Assembly: GCF_009176725.1 (NCBI RefSeq)
Contig: NZ_AP020337.1
Coordinates: 1,736,001 to 1,800,000 of the forward strand
Origin: Pseudomonas sp. KUIN-1
GTDB taxonomy: Bacteria; Pseudomonadota; Gammaproteobacteria; Pseudomonadales; Pseudomonadaceae
Length of the DNA stretch: 64,000 nucleotides
Reading direction: 5' to 3'
The notes below the pieces were generated by a model. That model was not told the origin of the DNA. It saw only the letters and a list, made by a program, of their open reading frames with translations, and made no database searches. Shown in pieces: positions 12,252 to 17,468 of this stretch. How positions within the stretch are numbered: position 1 is the first letter of the stretch; the number at the start of each line of letters is the position of its first letter. A program made the position numbers and the translations under genes.

Positions 12252-12488
12252 TTATCTCACTCGGCGTACCTGCAACTGACCGCACGGCGGACCGCTCAGT
12301 TGCTCCCCGGTTTCGAGGCTGAACACCGAAAAGTGCAGGGGACAGGTGATGGACCGGCGTTTCTCGTTGACCACTCCATGCTCCAGCCATCCTTCACGAT
12401 GCGGGCAACTGCTCGGTATCAGGTATTGCTCCTGGCCAATGCGTACGGTGAACGTGTCGGGACGACGAAACTCAGCAGGCTCGTTCAA
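12252..12488 (-). CDS. Small Rieske [2Fe-2S] ferredoxin-like protein, 78 aa
   Basis: Both halves of a Rieske cluster-binding site are present: a CPH at about residue 28 (S-C-P-H-R-E-G) and CPLH at about 49 (T-C-P-L-H-F-S-V-F). There is little beyond the cluster fold, which suggests a soluble electron carrier rather than an oxygenase subunit. It is the last gene of the five-gene operon and overlaps the diiron-protein gene by 17 bases. The likely role, by inference, is to reduce the adjacent heme-oxygenase-like diiron enzyme. Confidence 0.85.
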   Translation of the reverse strand: MNEPAEFRRPDTFTVRIGQEQYLIPSSCPHREGWLEHGVVNEKRRSITCPLHFSVFSLETGEQLSGPPCGQLQVRRVR

Positions 12489-13329
12489 GGCTGACCTCCT
12501 TGTTGAAATGCTTGAGCCGACGGGCTTTTTCTACCGCCAGGTCGAACGCCAGGTTGGTGATCTCGCGTCCCATGCAGATGCCGCGCCAGGCTTTTACCGG
12601 ATCCAGATCCCCGCTGACGTCCATGGCCTTGAGCAGGCGCTGGCCCTCGATGGCGTGGAAAACGTCGATATGAACGTGTTCTGAATAGTAGGTATGAGCC
12701 TTGATCTGCAAGCGCTCGCAAAGCTGCGTGTAGCACTCGAAAAAGAACGGTACCACGGTCTCGAAGTAGGTGATGACGCCGGCAAACCATGACGCATCGT
12801 CCGCCCGCATCGCCAGCCAGCAGAACATATTGGGAAAGGTGAAACCGGCGCTGGAGTTGGCGTCTACGTAAAACTGCAGGTCCAGCGGCATTTCCAGTTC
12901 GCGCAACAGGTCCTGATAGAGCGTGGTATGCGAGCGTTTGAGGTTCCCCGAGCCGAACTCGTCGATCATCATGCGCAGCATGGGCATCTGTGCGGGAAGG
13001 CTGAGCCTGGGCATCAGGTGATAGAACACCTGTGCTTCGGTCAGGCCATCCAGTGCAAACTCCTGAACCAGAATCCGGAATTCGTCGAGGGTCATGTCGT
13101 TGGCGACATACTGTGCGCTGGGCGGTACTTCGCTGCTCTCCTGTTCGACCAGCTCGGCCAGCATTCTGCGCAGACCGGCAAGGTCATCAGGCGCATCTGC
13201 CGTCATGCTGCGTTCGATGGCATCCTCGATCCAGTGTTGCTCGAACGCCAGAATCGCCTGTGGCATGGGCACCCGCTTTTCGATAAGCGCACGGTTGGCC
13301 AGAAACAGTTGCTTGTGCAGGTCTTCCAT
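12472..13329 (-). CDS. Heme-oxygenase-like diiron oxidase (HDO) family protein, 285 aa
   Basis: Belongs to the iron-containing heme-oxygenase-fold family (UndA, BesC, SznF central domain, MgoB), which uses two irons and O2 for C-C or N oxidation. Likely ligands and motifs are visible: DEFGSG at 123-128 followed by H134 (the D-E-x-G-x-G-x5-H pattern), E190 in a helix, and YYSEHVHIDVFH at 214-225 (the x-H-x3-D-x2-H pattern). It overlaps the DapA-like gene by one base and the Rieske gene by 17, so it is translationally coupled to a lyase upstream and an electron carrier downstream. The reaction is unknown; an oxidative step on an amino-acid-derived intermediate is inferred. Confidence 0.82.
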   Translation of the reverse strand: MEDLHKQLFLANRALIEKRVPMPQAILAFEQHWIEDAIERSMTADAPDDLAGLRRMLAELVEQESSEVPPSAQYVANDMTLDEFRILVQEFALDGLTEAQVFYHLMPRLSLPAQMPMLRMMIDEFGSGNLKRSHTTLYQDLLRELEMPLDLQFYVDANSSAGFTFPNMFCWLAMRADDASWFAGVITYFETVVPFFFECYTQLCERLQIKAHTYYSEHVHIDVFHAIEGQRLLKAMDVSGDLDPVKAWRGICMGREITNLAFDLAVEKARRLKHFNKEVSLERAC

Positions 13330-14126
13330 CAGGCAGCCTCCTCGGTGACGACACGCTCGCTGTTGATCACGCCCCTGGCTCTGAGCTCGCGCTTGATATG
13401 CGCGTACCAGTCCGGGGCATTGAGCAGATAACGCTGGTTAAGCGTGGCGACTTGCTGGCTGAGTGCCGGCTGCTGCCGGGCAGCCGCTGTCCGGCACAGC
13501 AGCGGTTCCAGATTGGCCAGGGAAACCACATTGCCGTCGGACTCCAGGTCTCCGGCCAGCTGCATTTCCCAGCCGATGAAGTAGTCGACGCCCTCCTGTC
13601 GAATGGCATCTACCTGATCCTGCGGGCGCGACAGCGAGGGCGAGTCCTTCAGGCCAATGACTCTGGGTAACTGCGCGATGGCCTTGAGGGTGGCGAAGGA
13701 CTTTTCGTTGCCCGACAGGGCGGCCTCGTTGTACATGAAGATATCCATGTGCGTCGCGTCATGAATGGTCTGGTAATGCTCGATGATCGCCTGCTGGCTG
13801 ATACCGGGCGTCAAGGGTGAGGTAAACATCACTGCTTGAGCACCGGCATCCTGAGCCAGGAGGGCAAAGTCCAGCACCTCCTGCGTCGAATGGCGTTCGA
13901 TCCCGGCGATGACGCTGCGCTCGCCCGCGTGCCTGAGGGTCAGCGTCAGCATCTGCAGCCATTGCTGACGCGACAGCCGCCAGCCCTCTCCGGAGGTCAG
14001 GCATGGAATGTAGCCATCGACATGGGGCGCGAGGCTACCCAAAAGGCGTTCGAGGCTGGCTTCGCAGACTTGCTCCTGCGCGTTCAGAGGCGTTATCAGG
14101 GGGACCAGAATGCTTTTACCAGACAT
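13329..14126 (-). CDS. Dihydrodipicolinate synthase (DapA)/N-acetylneuraminate lyase family protein, 265 aa
   Basis: A class I (Schiff-base) aldolase/lyase of the DapA superfamily. The Schiff-base lysine is K160 in VIGLKDS, the catalytic tyrosine is Y132 in FMYNEA, and a variant of the TTGE loop is T44-S45-G46-E47. At 265 residues it is shorter than DapA (about 292), and the C-terminal helices look divergent, so it is unlikely to be the lysine-pathway enzyme. It overlaps the PIN-like gene by 11 bases. The family condenses pyruvate with an aldehyde or runs the reverse; the actual substrate here is unknown. Confidence 0.85.
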   Translation of the reverse strand: MSGKSILVPLITPLNAQEQVCEASLERLLGSLAPHVDGYIPCLTSGEGWRLSRQQWLQMLTLTLRHAGERSVIAGIERHSTQEVLDFALLAQDAGAQAVMFTSPLTPGISQQAIIEHYQTIHDATHMDIFMYNEAALSGNEKSFATLKAIAQLPRVIGLKDSPSLSRPQDQVDAIRQEGVDYFIGWEMQLAGDLESDGNVVSLANLEPLLCRTAAARQQPALSQQVATLNQRYLLNAPDWYAHIKRELRARGVINSERVVTEEAA

Positions 14127-14634
14127 GTTGAAAGTCCTCGTTGCTGATCACCATGGCGCAGGACTGGTCATAGAGACGCTGGAGCATCTTCGGGAACGTC
14201 TGCCGTCGAATGGTGCTTTCGAATGGTTGAAGGAAAGGCTGCAGCACTTGCAGGCGCAGCAACTCCGGATCGTGGGTATAAAACGGGATTTCCTGCTCCA
14301 GCACTTGAGCAGCCAGCAGTTTCTTGTCGGCCGGCAGACCTCTGAACAGCGTTTCACCTGCTGCGCGCTGGAGCACCTGTTCGCTATAGCCCTCACGCTG
14401 TATTGCCATGTCGGTGTGCAAGACATCCATGAACGGGTAATAGGCGTCCTGCAGGGCACGGCCTTTCTTCCAGATGATGGCGTCGCAAATGCCTATCTGG
14501 GCGAAATTCATCTGCACGCTGCTCTCGTAGAACCGGGAGAAGAACTCCAGGGATTTGTCACGCACGCCGGGATCGGCATGGTGCATGCCCATGAAAACCG
14601 TGGCATCGATCATCGGCAGGTCGAAGTCAGACAT
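14116..14634 (-). CDS. PIN-domain-like protein of unknown function, 172 aa
   Basis: I do not recognise a named family with certainty. The architecture resembles a PIN-like fold: an early acidic strand motif (P-M-I-D-A-T-V-F-M, D10), a second acidic residue around 52 in G-I-C-D-A-I-I-W, a helical middle, and an end strand C-A-M-V-I-S-N-E-D-F like the 'xTNDxDF' close of PIN domains. No antitoxin gene accompanies it. The start at 14634 was preferred to an upstream one because the upstream codons lie inside the aminotransferase gene and GGAG precedes MSDFDLP. It overlaps its neighbours by 8 and 11 bases. Its role in a biosynthetic operon (nuclease, regulator or scaffold) is open. Confidence 0.6.
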   Translation of the reverse strand: MSDFDLPMIDATVFMGMHHADPGVRDKSLEFFSRFYESSVQMNFAQIGICDAIIWKKGRALQDAYYPFMDVLHTDMAIQREGYSEQVLQRAAGETLFRGLPADKKLLAAQVLEQEIPFYTHDPELLRLQVLQPFLQPFESTIRRQTFPKMLQRLYDQSCAMVISNEDFQHVW

Positions 14635-15823
14635 GGAGGTTCTCCAGTGCCTGCGCAATTGCCTGAACGGCGGCCTCGAATTCGTCCGGCTTGCGTGCCA
14701 GTGCCAGGCGTATGTAGCGCTGGCCTTTTTCCGGCTGGCTCCAGTAGAAATACTTGCCCGGCAGTACGTAGACGTCCGATTGCAGCAGATAAGCCTGCAA
14801 GTCATCGGCGTTCACGCCGGCGGGTAGAATCTCGAACCAGGCCACGCTGGTATCGATCATCGGTTGCACATACTTCAAGACCTTGCCCTCAAGGCAGGCA
14901 CGCGCCTTGCTGCGGTTGAGGTCCAGCACCGAGCGCACGGAGTCGAAGTCATCGTCGTTGCTGTCCTCGATGTAGCGGGTCACGACGTTGAGGATGAACG
15001 GTGAGACATTCAGCAGGACGCTGGTGACAATGCTGTAGATATCGGCGTTGATGTCGCGGCTGGCCATGAGCGTGGCGCATTTGGTGTCCTGCAGGGGCCA
15101 GGTCTTGCCCGTATCTTCCATGACCAGGTATTGAGTGCCGATGTCGTCGAGAATCGCGTAGGCATCCACGCGCTGCTTGCCGGCGGCTTTGAAGAACGAG
15201 GCGAAACAGAAATCGAGGATCAGCAGCTTGTTGTAATCCCGGCAGTAGCGGGCCACTTCGACAAACGTGTCCGGCCCCTCGGCAAACAGGCTGGAACCTG
15301 TCGGGTTGTTGGGATCGACCAGAAAGATTGCGTCCAGTCCGATGGCGGCCTTCTGTAACTTTGCGTACACCTCGGTCGATGACCTGAACAGGCTTTCATC
15401 CAGTGCCGACATGGGCACTTCCATGTGTTTCAACAGGTCATGCAGGTTGTCGAAACAGGGCTCGATCAGCCCGACGCTCATGTTCTTTTTGCGCAAGTAG
15501 GTCGCAGTGATATGCATGGCGATGGACGCGGCGTAGACGAGATAGATTTCGTCGTGGCGTTTCAACGCATGATGCTGGCCGTGGAAGGTGAAGAAGGCCT
15601 GAATGAACGTCTGTTCACTCTGATACTGCGTCTGGTTCTGTGCCCGATACCACAGCTCGGGCAGGCTGGCGACGATCATGCGCTGGGTCTCGCTCTGATC
15701 CTGGTGCGTGTGGGCATCGGCCAGATTGAAGCGGGTCTTGAGGGCAGAAATTTCGTGTTGGGTAATATCGTCCAGAACAGGAACTGCGTTCAAGGTGTCG
15801 ATACCGGCATACAGACTATTCAT
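14627..15823 (-). CDS. PLP-dependent class I/II aminotransferase, 398 aa
   Basis: A fold-type I aminotransferase. Visible signatures are the DPNNPTGS motif (170-177), the PLP-ring aspartate in LILDFCFASF (about D204), the Schiff-base lysine K240 in MEDTGKTWP, and the carboxylate-binding arginine in YIRLALAR (R372). The N-terminal 90 residues are unlike common aspartate or aromatic aminotransferases, suggesting a dedicated substrate. It is the first gene of the five-gene operon, divergent from ahlI across 219 bases that contain two lux-box-like dyads. Substrate and product are not predicted. Confidence 0.87.
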   Translation of the reverse strand: MNSLYAGIDTLNAVPVLDDITQHEISALKTRFNLADAHTHQDQSETQRMIVASLPELWYRAQNQTQYQSEQTFIQAFFTFHGQHHALKRHDEIYLVYAASIAMHITATYLRKKNMSVGLIEPCFDNLHDLLKHMEVPMSALDESLFRSSTEVYAKLQKAAIGLDAIFLVDPNNPTGSSLFAEGPDTFVEVARYCRDYNKLLILDFCFASFFKAAGKQRVDAYAILDDIGTQYLVMEDTGKTWPLQDTKCATLMASRDINADIYSIVTSVLLNVSPFILNVVTRYIEDSNDDDFDSVRSVLDLNRSKARACLEGKVLKYVQPMIDTSVAWFEILPAGVNADDLQAYLLQSDVYVLPGKYFYWSQPEKGQRYIRLALARKPDEFEAAVQAIAQALENLHV

Positions 15824-15919
15824 ACCATTATCCCTGTGGCGTCATTATTGTTTGGGAAGCCGCCGTCCTGGATATCCAGAACGCCGGAGCAGATTTCCTT
15901 ATTTTCGGCGCCAATGACA

Positions 15920-15935
15920 CTGTACCTAAGTGCAA
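15920..15935. promoter_or_regulatory. lux-box-like dyad, operon-proximal
   Basis: CTGTACCT|AAGTGCAA is an imperfect dyad sharing 12 of 16 positions with the site at 15968-15983. It lies about 97 bases upstream of the aminotransferase start, so an AhlR-AHL complex could act on the operon from here. Inferred from sequence only. Confidence 0.45.
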
Positions 15936-15967
15936 ACAGCAGGGCGTTAGTGTTTCAGCGTGTTGAC

Positions 15968-15983
15968 CTGTTCTTAAGTACAG
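15968..15983. promoter_or_regulatory. lux-box-like dyad upstream of ahlI
   Basis: CTGTTCTT|AAGTACAG is a 16-base dyad, perfect except for one T-T pair, centred about 67 bases upstream of the ahlI ATG. Size and form suit a LuxR-type operator. AhlI is known to be AhlR-dependent in P. syringae; that this is the site is inference. Confidence 0.65.
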
Positions 15984-16042
15984 TAGATTTGCCTATTTAA
16001 ATAAGTAATGCTTCACGCTGGTGACGCCGGGTGGGTTTTAGA

Positions 16043-16723
16043 ATGTCGAGCGGGTTTGAATTTCAGGTAGCCAGTTACAGCAAAGTGCCCGTCACGTTGC
16101 TGGAAACGCTGTATGCCCTGCGCAAGAAGATCTTTTCGGATCGGCTTGAATGGAAGGTTCGCGTCAGTCAGGCGTTCGAGTTCGATGACTATGACAGTGC
16201 CGCTGCGACTTACCTGATAGGCAGCTGGAACGGGGTTCCGCTGGCCGGGCTCAGGCTGATCAACACCTGTGATCCGTACATGCTGGATGGACCGTTTCGC
16301 AGTTTTTTCGACTATCCGGCGCCCAGAAATGCTGGCATGGCGGAGTCGAGCCGGTTCTTTGTCGACACGGAACGTGCCCGGTCGCTGGGTATTCTGCACG
16401 CGCCACTGACCGAAATGCTGCTGTTCTCGATGCACAATCACGCTGCCTCGGCTGGTCTGGAGTCCATCATCACGGTGGTCAGCAAGGCGATGGCGCGGAT
16501 CGTGCGCAAGTCCGGGTGGGAGCACCGTGTTCTGGCAACGGGGGAGGCTTCACCAGGCGAGACGGTATTGTTGCTGGATATGCCTGTGAGCGCCGACAAC
16601 CATCAACGGCTGCTCGGCAGCATTGCTCTCAGGCAGCCCGTCACGGATGACCTGTTGCGCTGGCCAATACCGCTCGATGCATCAGCATCCTTGCAGCGAG
16701 CACGCATGGACAGCGCAGCCTGA
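16043..16723 (+). CDS. ahlI: Acyl-homoserine-lactone synthase AhlI (LuxI family), 226 aa
   Basis: Makes the quorum signal (3-oxo-hexanoyl-HSL in P. syringae) from acyl-ACP and S-adenosylmethionine. Conserved LuxI residues are in place: R27 with KKIF, LEW at 35-37, the D48/D51 acidic patch (FDDYD), GLRL with R71, and ESSRFFVD around 101-108. The ATG at 16043 (MSSGFEF) was chosen over a GTG four codons upstream. It ends one base before the converging ahlR stop. The tail-to-tail ahlI/ahlR order is typical of P. syringae. Confidence 0.96.
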   Translation: MSSGFEFQVASYSKVPVTLLETLYALRKKIFSDRLEWKVRVSQAFEFDDYDSAAATYLIGSWNGVPLAGLRLINTCDPYMLDGPFRSFFDYPAPRNAGMAESSRFFVDTERARSLGILHAPLTEMLLFSMHNHAASAGLESIITVVSKAMARIVRKSGWEHRVLATGEASPGETVLLLDMPVSADNHQRLLGSIALRQPVTDDLLRWPIPLDASASLQRARMDSAA

Positions 16724-16724
16724 G

Positions 16725-17468
16725 TCAGACCATGCCCATATTAATGGCTTTGTACACGGCCTGTTTGGCAGTGCGCACTTCGAGTTTGCTGGAAACGTTG
16801 GACATGTGAAATTTCACGGTGCGTTCCGAAATGGAAAATATCTCGGCGATTTCGCTGTAGGCCTTGCCCATGGCTACCCATTTCAGCACGCCTATTTCGC
16901 GGCTGGATAATTTGCATCGGGTGGGCTGCGGGAAGAGTTCGTGGGGCGCCTGTGTCTTGGTCAAACGGTCATGAAAGCGGATGAGGCTCATCTGGATATC
17001 AGCGGCCTTGTCGCGGATTCGCTGATCGAAGTCAGTCTGTTGCCTGGCATTGCAAAGACTCAGAGCGGCAAAAAGCCCGCTTGCATCGTGCAGGGTGAAA
17101 GTGGCCCCGGAGGACAGCTGGTATTTGGCCGAGCGCTTCAGGAAGTCATCGGTCTCGACGCCCTGAATGGCATGCCGGGCCTCTCTCCAGAAAAATGGCG
17201 TAATGCTATGCCAGGCATGTTTGATGATGGGATCGATAAGGTGATAGTTGGAGGCAATATACGACTTCAGCCAGGAATCAGGATAGTTGGACAGGATGAC
17301 CGGTTTGACAGTGCGTGTCTTTGGGCTGGAAAAGTAGGCATAGGTGAAATCGCCAATACGATGCAGATCGTTTTCGAAGTCTTCAATCAATTGACGCAGC
17401 GGAGCAGGGGCTGCGTTGATCTTGAGGGGCGGGCAGTCAAGTTGGGTGTGCACGGTACGAACCTCCAT
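16725..17468 (-). CDS. ahlR: AHL-responsive LuxR-family regulator AhlR, 247 aa
   Basis: The cytoplasmic receptor for the AhlI signal. The N-terminal autoinducer-binding domain has the invariant Trp/Tyr/Asp/Pro set in YPDSWLKSYI and YHLIDPIIKHA, with W and G in the later part. The C-terminal LuxR helix-turn-helix is LSSREIGVLKWVAMGK followed by ISERTVKFHMSNV. It converges with ahlI (one base apart). Its promoter lies in a 287-base divergent gap shared with the E1-like gene. Confidence 0.96.
   Translation of the reverse strand: MEVRTVHTQLDCPPLKINAAPAPLRQLIEDFENDLHRIGDFTYAYFSSPKTRTVKPVILSNYPDSWLKSYIASNYHLIDPIIKHAWHSITPFFWREARHAIQGVETDDFLKRSAKYQLSSGATFTLHDASGLFAALSLCNARQQTDFDQRIRDKAADIQMSLIRFHDRLTKTQAPHELFPQPTRCKLSSREIGVLKWVAMGKAYSEIAEIFSISERTVKFHMSNVSSKLEVRTAKQAVYKAINMGMV

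Follow-up and report, generated by a model that had tools for sequence, protein, structure and literature searches.

Two oppositely facing LuxR-type sites between ahlI and the azomycin operon of Pseudomonas sp. KUIN-1 as probable lux boxes of AhlR

A 219-base divergent gap in the genome of the plant-associated bacterium Pseudomonas sp. KUIN-1, running from the ATG of rohP at 15823 to the ATG of ahlI at 16043, contains two lux-box-like dyads, one for the AHL synthase gene ahlI and the other for the azomycin (2-nitroimidazole) genes rohPQRST. Positions are those of the window, the whole 64,000-nt stretch of DNA that was analyzed. The sequence evidence for paired, oppositely facing regulator sites is strong, and we consider it likely that the dyads are lux boxes of AhlR at which AhlR-AHL activates both ahlI and rohPQRST, with one dimer per box; one signal receptor would then probably turn on both the signal and the antibiotic. 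The features of the region are:

15968 to 15983, plus strand: lux-box-like dyad for ahlI, one mismatch to CTGTACYTARGTACAG
15920 to 15935, minus strand: lux-box-like dyad for rohPQRST, two mismatches to CTGTACYTARGTACAG
16043 to 16723, plus strand: ahlI, AHL synthase (PF00765, E 1.1e-44)
16725 to 17468, minus strand: ahlR, LuxR-type receptor (PF03472 and PF00196)
14627 to 15823, minus strand: rohP, PLP enzyme of the MppP family (PDB 6c3a and 5dj1, MppP; TIGR04462 below cut-off)
14116 to 14634, minus strand: rohQ, cyclodehydratase, DUF6190 (PF19689; PDB 9c5w and 9oq8, RohQ)
13329 to 14126, minus strand: rohR, DHDPS-family aldolase (PF00701; named by position)
12472 to 13329, minus strand: rohS, haem-oxygenase-like N-oxygenase (PF14518; PDB 9pfw and 9pfx, PbrRohS)
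12252 to 12488, minus strand: rohT candidate, 78-residue Rieske protein (PF00355; named by position)

Judged by its gene content, the minus-strand operon is rohPQRST, as the five genes P, Q, R, S, and T are present in that order, the names of R and T being based on family and position. RohP belongs to the same family as the arginine hydroxylase MppP, and RohS matches PbrRohS plus one still closer entry. The small Rieske gene at 12252–12488 (minus strand), whose start codon is TTG and which overlaps the end of rohS, is easy to overlook and is likely rohT. The ahlI gene is 85% identical to a P. caricapapayae gene and 84% identical to a P. amygdali gene, which suggests that KUIN-1 probably belongs to the P. 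syringae group. The genome also encodes two other proteins that carry an autoinducer-binding domain (G000:C1 4912936–4913403 and 2068872–2069270), and cross-talk between these and the boxes is possible.

The adjacency of luxRI and roh has been noted before, with a suggestion of possible regulation by quorum signals (PMC12713392, J Bacteriol 2025), and the rohPQRST-luxRI region of P. syringae B728a shown in the accessible part of that paper is the same operon in the same luxRI neighborhood as in the window. The available text of the paper describes no binding sites. It reports azomycin production by the biocontrol strain DF41, where it was abolished in a deletion mutant, and by CMR5c, and no detection of azomycin in LB for the roh-bearing strains B728a and DC3000, so that further inputs may be required. 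The inducer of roh in P. syringae is a question raised in the same paper, and two defined 16-bp sites make a direct test possible. The portions available of a psyI RNA-seq study in pv. tabaci (PMC5458577) name no roh gene. In the accessible literature on azomycin, lux boxes, AhlR, and the promoter of ahlI, no published description of these boxes was found, and the ahlI box may already be in print.

The first-pass annotation of this DNA had claimed two related dyads at 15920–15935 and 15968–15983, and these coordinates proved correct, with 12 of 16 positions identical between the two. Both are imperfect dyads of the CTG...CAG type lying next to a luxR-luxI pair. The lux box of Vibrio fischeri is a CTGTA...TACAG dyad immediately before the -35 region of the luxI promoter, with the gene for a LuxR-type activator adjacent. 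The window shares with V. fischeri a dyad of the CTGTA...TACAG type near the luxI promoter and a LuxR-type gene next door; unlike V. fischeri, it has two boxes, one for each of two divergent promoters, and its second transcription unit is an antibiotic operon.

Within the window the two dyads are the only matches to CTGTACYTARGTACAG at up to three mismatches (shuffled windows gave a mean of 0.15 matches, and 2 of 100 shuffles reached two). A motif search of the genome, as the earlier annotation had proposed, likewise returned only the two dyads in 6.03 Mb at up to two mismatches, and the reversed pattern had no match under the same conditions; the expectation from base composition alone is approximately 3.4 matches per genome and 0.0001 per gap. 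We predict from this that, in KUIN-1, the strongest AhlR sites control only two transcription units, one for the strain's own signal and one for an antibiotic with additional phytotoxic activity. However, the CTGTACYTARGTACAG pattern was derived from related loci that had already been inspected and is not an independent prior, and comparison among loci is therefore fairer evidence than the genome count. When each 16-mer was searched for in the genome at three mismatches, the numbers were roughly those of chance: 12+10 matches for the ahlI box vs. 6+7 for its control, two of these being the box itself and eight one recurrent word, and 10+5 for the roh box vs. 13+6.

DUF6190 (RohQ) was present in 21 of 398 Pseudomonas genomes, including that of the window, and in all 20 others tblastn located rohP, Q, R, and S together. 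Loci L014 and L015 coincide with L048 and L050 and were counted once, and a second genus-level draw yielded 19 genomes that were all already in the sample. A class-wide, out-of-sample search of 369 genomes gave, besides the window's genome, a single weak match below the cut-off. By tblastn, 11 of the 21 roh genomes have luxR-luxI at the locus, eight a LuxR gene only and two neither, which differs from the accessible text of PMC12713392, which describes luxRI as adjacent in every case. In the window and 10 of the 20 other loci luxR and luxI are convergent and rohP is divergent from luxI, and in the eight LuxR-only loci the LuxR gene directly precedes rohP in the same orientation. In two of the LuxR-only loci (L049 and L062) the rohP match is split into two pieces in different frames and looks frameshifted.

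The boxes follow these architectures. Two are found in the luxI-rohP gap of all 11 luxR-luxI loci, which bears out the earlier proposal that one dyad lies nearer each transcription unit, and a single box precedes rohP in all eight LuxR-only loci. In both loci that lack LuxR and luxI (L065 and L067), no box-like word occurs within approximately 450 bases upstream, and no box with up to two mismatches was found on the locus contig (G309) or in the whole genome (G171). Boxes at the two-box loci, 22 in all, have one or two mismatches, except for three boxes with three (G010 on the roh side, G308 and G051 on the luxI side). In a comparison of the window with its two nearest relatives, 37 of 40 columns are unchanged in the boxes vs. 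119 of 176 in the remaining gap. These counts are to be read with the ancestry of the loci in mind, as the three architectures can be explained by two changes on a tree of rohP (into which L049 and L062 were entered shortened at the first stop). The 21 loci thus appear to represent about three clades and not 21 independent events, because of which the architecture counts and Fisher p values overstate independence.

The conclusion that the two dyads are LuxR-type sites, one per transcription unit, is further supported by what lies downstream of each box. In the window the predicted elements are:

16007 to 16012, plus strand: predicted -10 of ahlI, AATGCT, offset 39 from the box start, predicted transcription start near 16019
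15891 to 15896, minus strand: predicted -10 of rohP, AAATCT, offset 39 from the box start, predicted transcription start near 15884

Excluding the boxless loci L065 and L067, 28 of 30 box-promoter pairs have a hexamer with A and T at its second and sixth positions at offset 39 from the start of the box; in the remaining two, both on the roh side (L063 and L066), the hexamer is at offset 40, one base further away. In 2000 shuffles the best shared offset averaged 5.7 pairs, with a maximum of 9, and the offset also held in a set with fewer near-copies (17 of 18). It is almost certainly wrong, then, to regard the dyads as chance look-alikes: such a reading could point to the chance-like numbers of other genome matches at three mismatches and to an exact match in G309, judged by eye to lie just before a merR-like gene, but the boxes are conserved across loci whose gaps are mostly non-alignable, and the fixed -10 distance already contradicts it. 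The G309 match (L070, 1501–1516, directly upstream of the merR-like gene) is likely a false positive of the motif.

With the hexamer taken as the -10 element, the box centre would be at approximately -43.5, an activator position. Class II activation by LuxR occurs from a position close to -43.5. Each box would thus lie beside the -35 region of the promoter it would control, as placed from the predicted promoter. A plain sigma-70 scan of the ahlI-rohP gap found no promoter, consistent with a requirement for an activator, and the predicted -10 of the window's rohP is a poor one. The boxes also have a polarity, in that the promoter-near half carries 13.5 bits of information vs. 10.8 bits for the other half and is closer to the consensus in 18 of the 22 boxes from loci with two (two are equal and two, in L063 and L066, are worse). 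In both window dyads the half-site nearer the consensus points to the box's own promoter, although the roh box is the weaker of the two, with its two mismatches and a distal half matching at five of eight positions. A -10-like element at a fixed distance in both directions and, in the window, a better half turned toward the box's own promoter support one site per unit.

The same geometry bears on whether both boxes might be a tandem operator of ahlI alone, with roh under other control. Both boxes are indeed upstream of ahlI, but the LuxR-only loci retain exactly one box before rohP with no luxI adjacent, and in 17 of 19 loci a separate -10 lies at the same distance from the roh-side box toward rohP (one base off in the other two), leaving this arrangement very improbable. 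The spacing between the centres of paired boxes varies (32, 35, 37, and 48 in two loci each, and 47, 59, and 78 in one each), which argues against an obligatory contact between dimers. The original suggestion that one AhlR dimer pair could switch both directions is therefore retained as to two LuxR-type sites, one per unit, and amended as to the pair, for which one dimer per box appears the better description.

The mechanism we favor is that AhlI-made AHL would bind AhlR, an AhlR dimer on 15968–15983 would activate ahlI in a positive feedback, and a second dimer on 15920–15935 would activate rohPQRST, such that the azomycin genes are turned on together with signal production. Each box would serve the activator-dependent promoter immediately downstream of it. 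The activating sign at ahlI derives from published work, since reviews and papers, in the parts accessible, have AhlR-AHL as an activator of ahlI and of AHL production; at roh we infer the same sign. AefR and GacA are additional activators of the AhlI-AhlR system according to the available text of PMC7691447.

Conversely, AhlR might act on both boxes in the opposite sense, in the manner of EsaR/ExpR, with the AHL-free form active and AHL releasing it. The convergent, abutting arrangement of ahlI and ahlR resembles the convergent luxR-luxI pairs of these regulators, and overlapping convergent pairs are common among AHL-antagonized regulators in the accessible portion of PMC3658600. However, ahlI and ahlR abut without overlapping, and, unlike the EsaR/ExpR type, the published sign of AhlR on ahlI is activation in the literature available, and we regard action in the opposite sense as improbable. 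It is also feasible, though decidedly more doubtful, that the boxes are real and a different LuxR-family protein is the main binder on the roh side, for which the two further autoinducer-binding-domain proteins would be candidates; against this, AhlR is encoded adjacent to the boxes and a LuxR gene adjoins the box in all 19 box-bearing roh loci.

In the LuxR-only clade the single box is perfect or near-perfect. Six of the eight LuxR-only genomes yielded no member of the AHL synthase family, and the other two (G080 and G416) each have two such members elsewhere in the genome. Both LuxR domains were matched in all three of the LuxR-only regulators examined (of eight), and in an alignment of 22 LuxR proteins, three of them from roh-free loci, these regulators presumably retain AHL-pocket-type residues, as judged by eye. 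Whether one LuxR-box module serves two modes of azomycin control, self-signaled where the locus has its own luxI and dependent on neighbors' AHL where it has LuxR only, is a suggestion to which we give slightly less than an even chance. If true, the six strains without a synthase may make the antibiotic only upon their neighbors' AHL. The LuxR-only clade makes eavesdropping control of an antibiotic testable. The LuxR solos of fluorescent pseudomonads (PMC8546723) are likewise luxI-less and adjoin a probable target operon, like the LuxR genes at 8 of 21 roh loci, but none of the solo subgroups in the accessible part of that paper is described as flanked by roh genes.

Across the 21 roh genomes, 43 sites match the box at up to two mismatches (the reversed pattern gives 34), of which 27 are inside the gaps described here, two precede a second luxI (in G010 and G289), and the other 14 are not above chance expectation. 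The related but roh-free luxI-luxR loci L087–L089, the only semi-independent test of the geometry, also have two boxes between luxI and a divergent operon, at spacings of 48 to 52 bases. In these loci two of six pairs keep the -10-like element at exactly the same offset, and in the other four it is one base nearer; a second luxI in L090 fits the -10 geometry as well. The first gene of the divergent operon is FabF-like in L087, the one locus of these examined for families, and the two-box module seems to be used with operons other than roh too.
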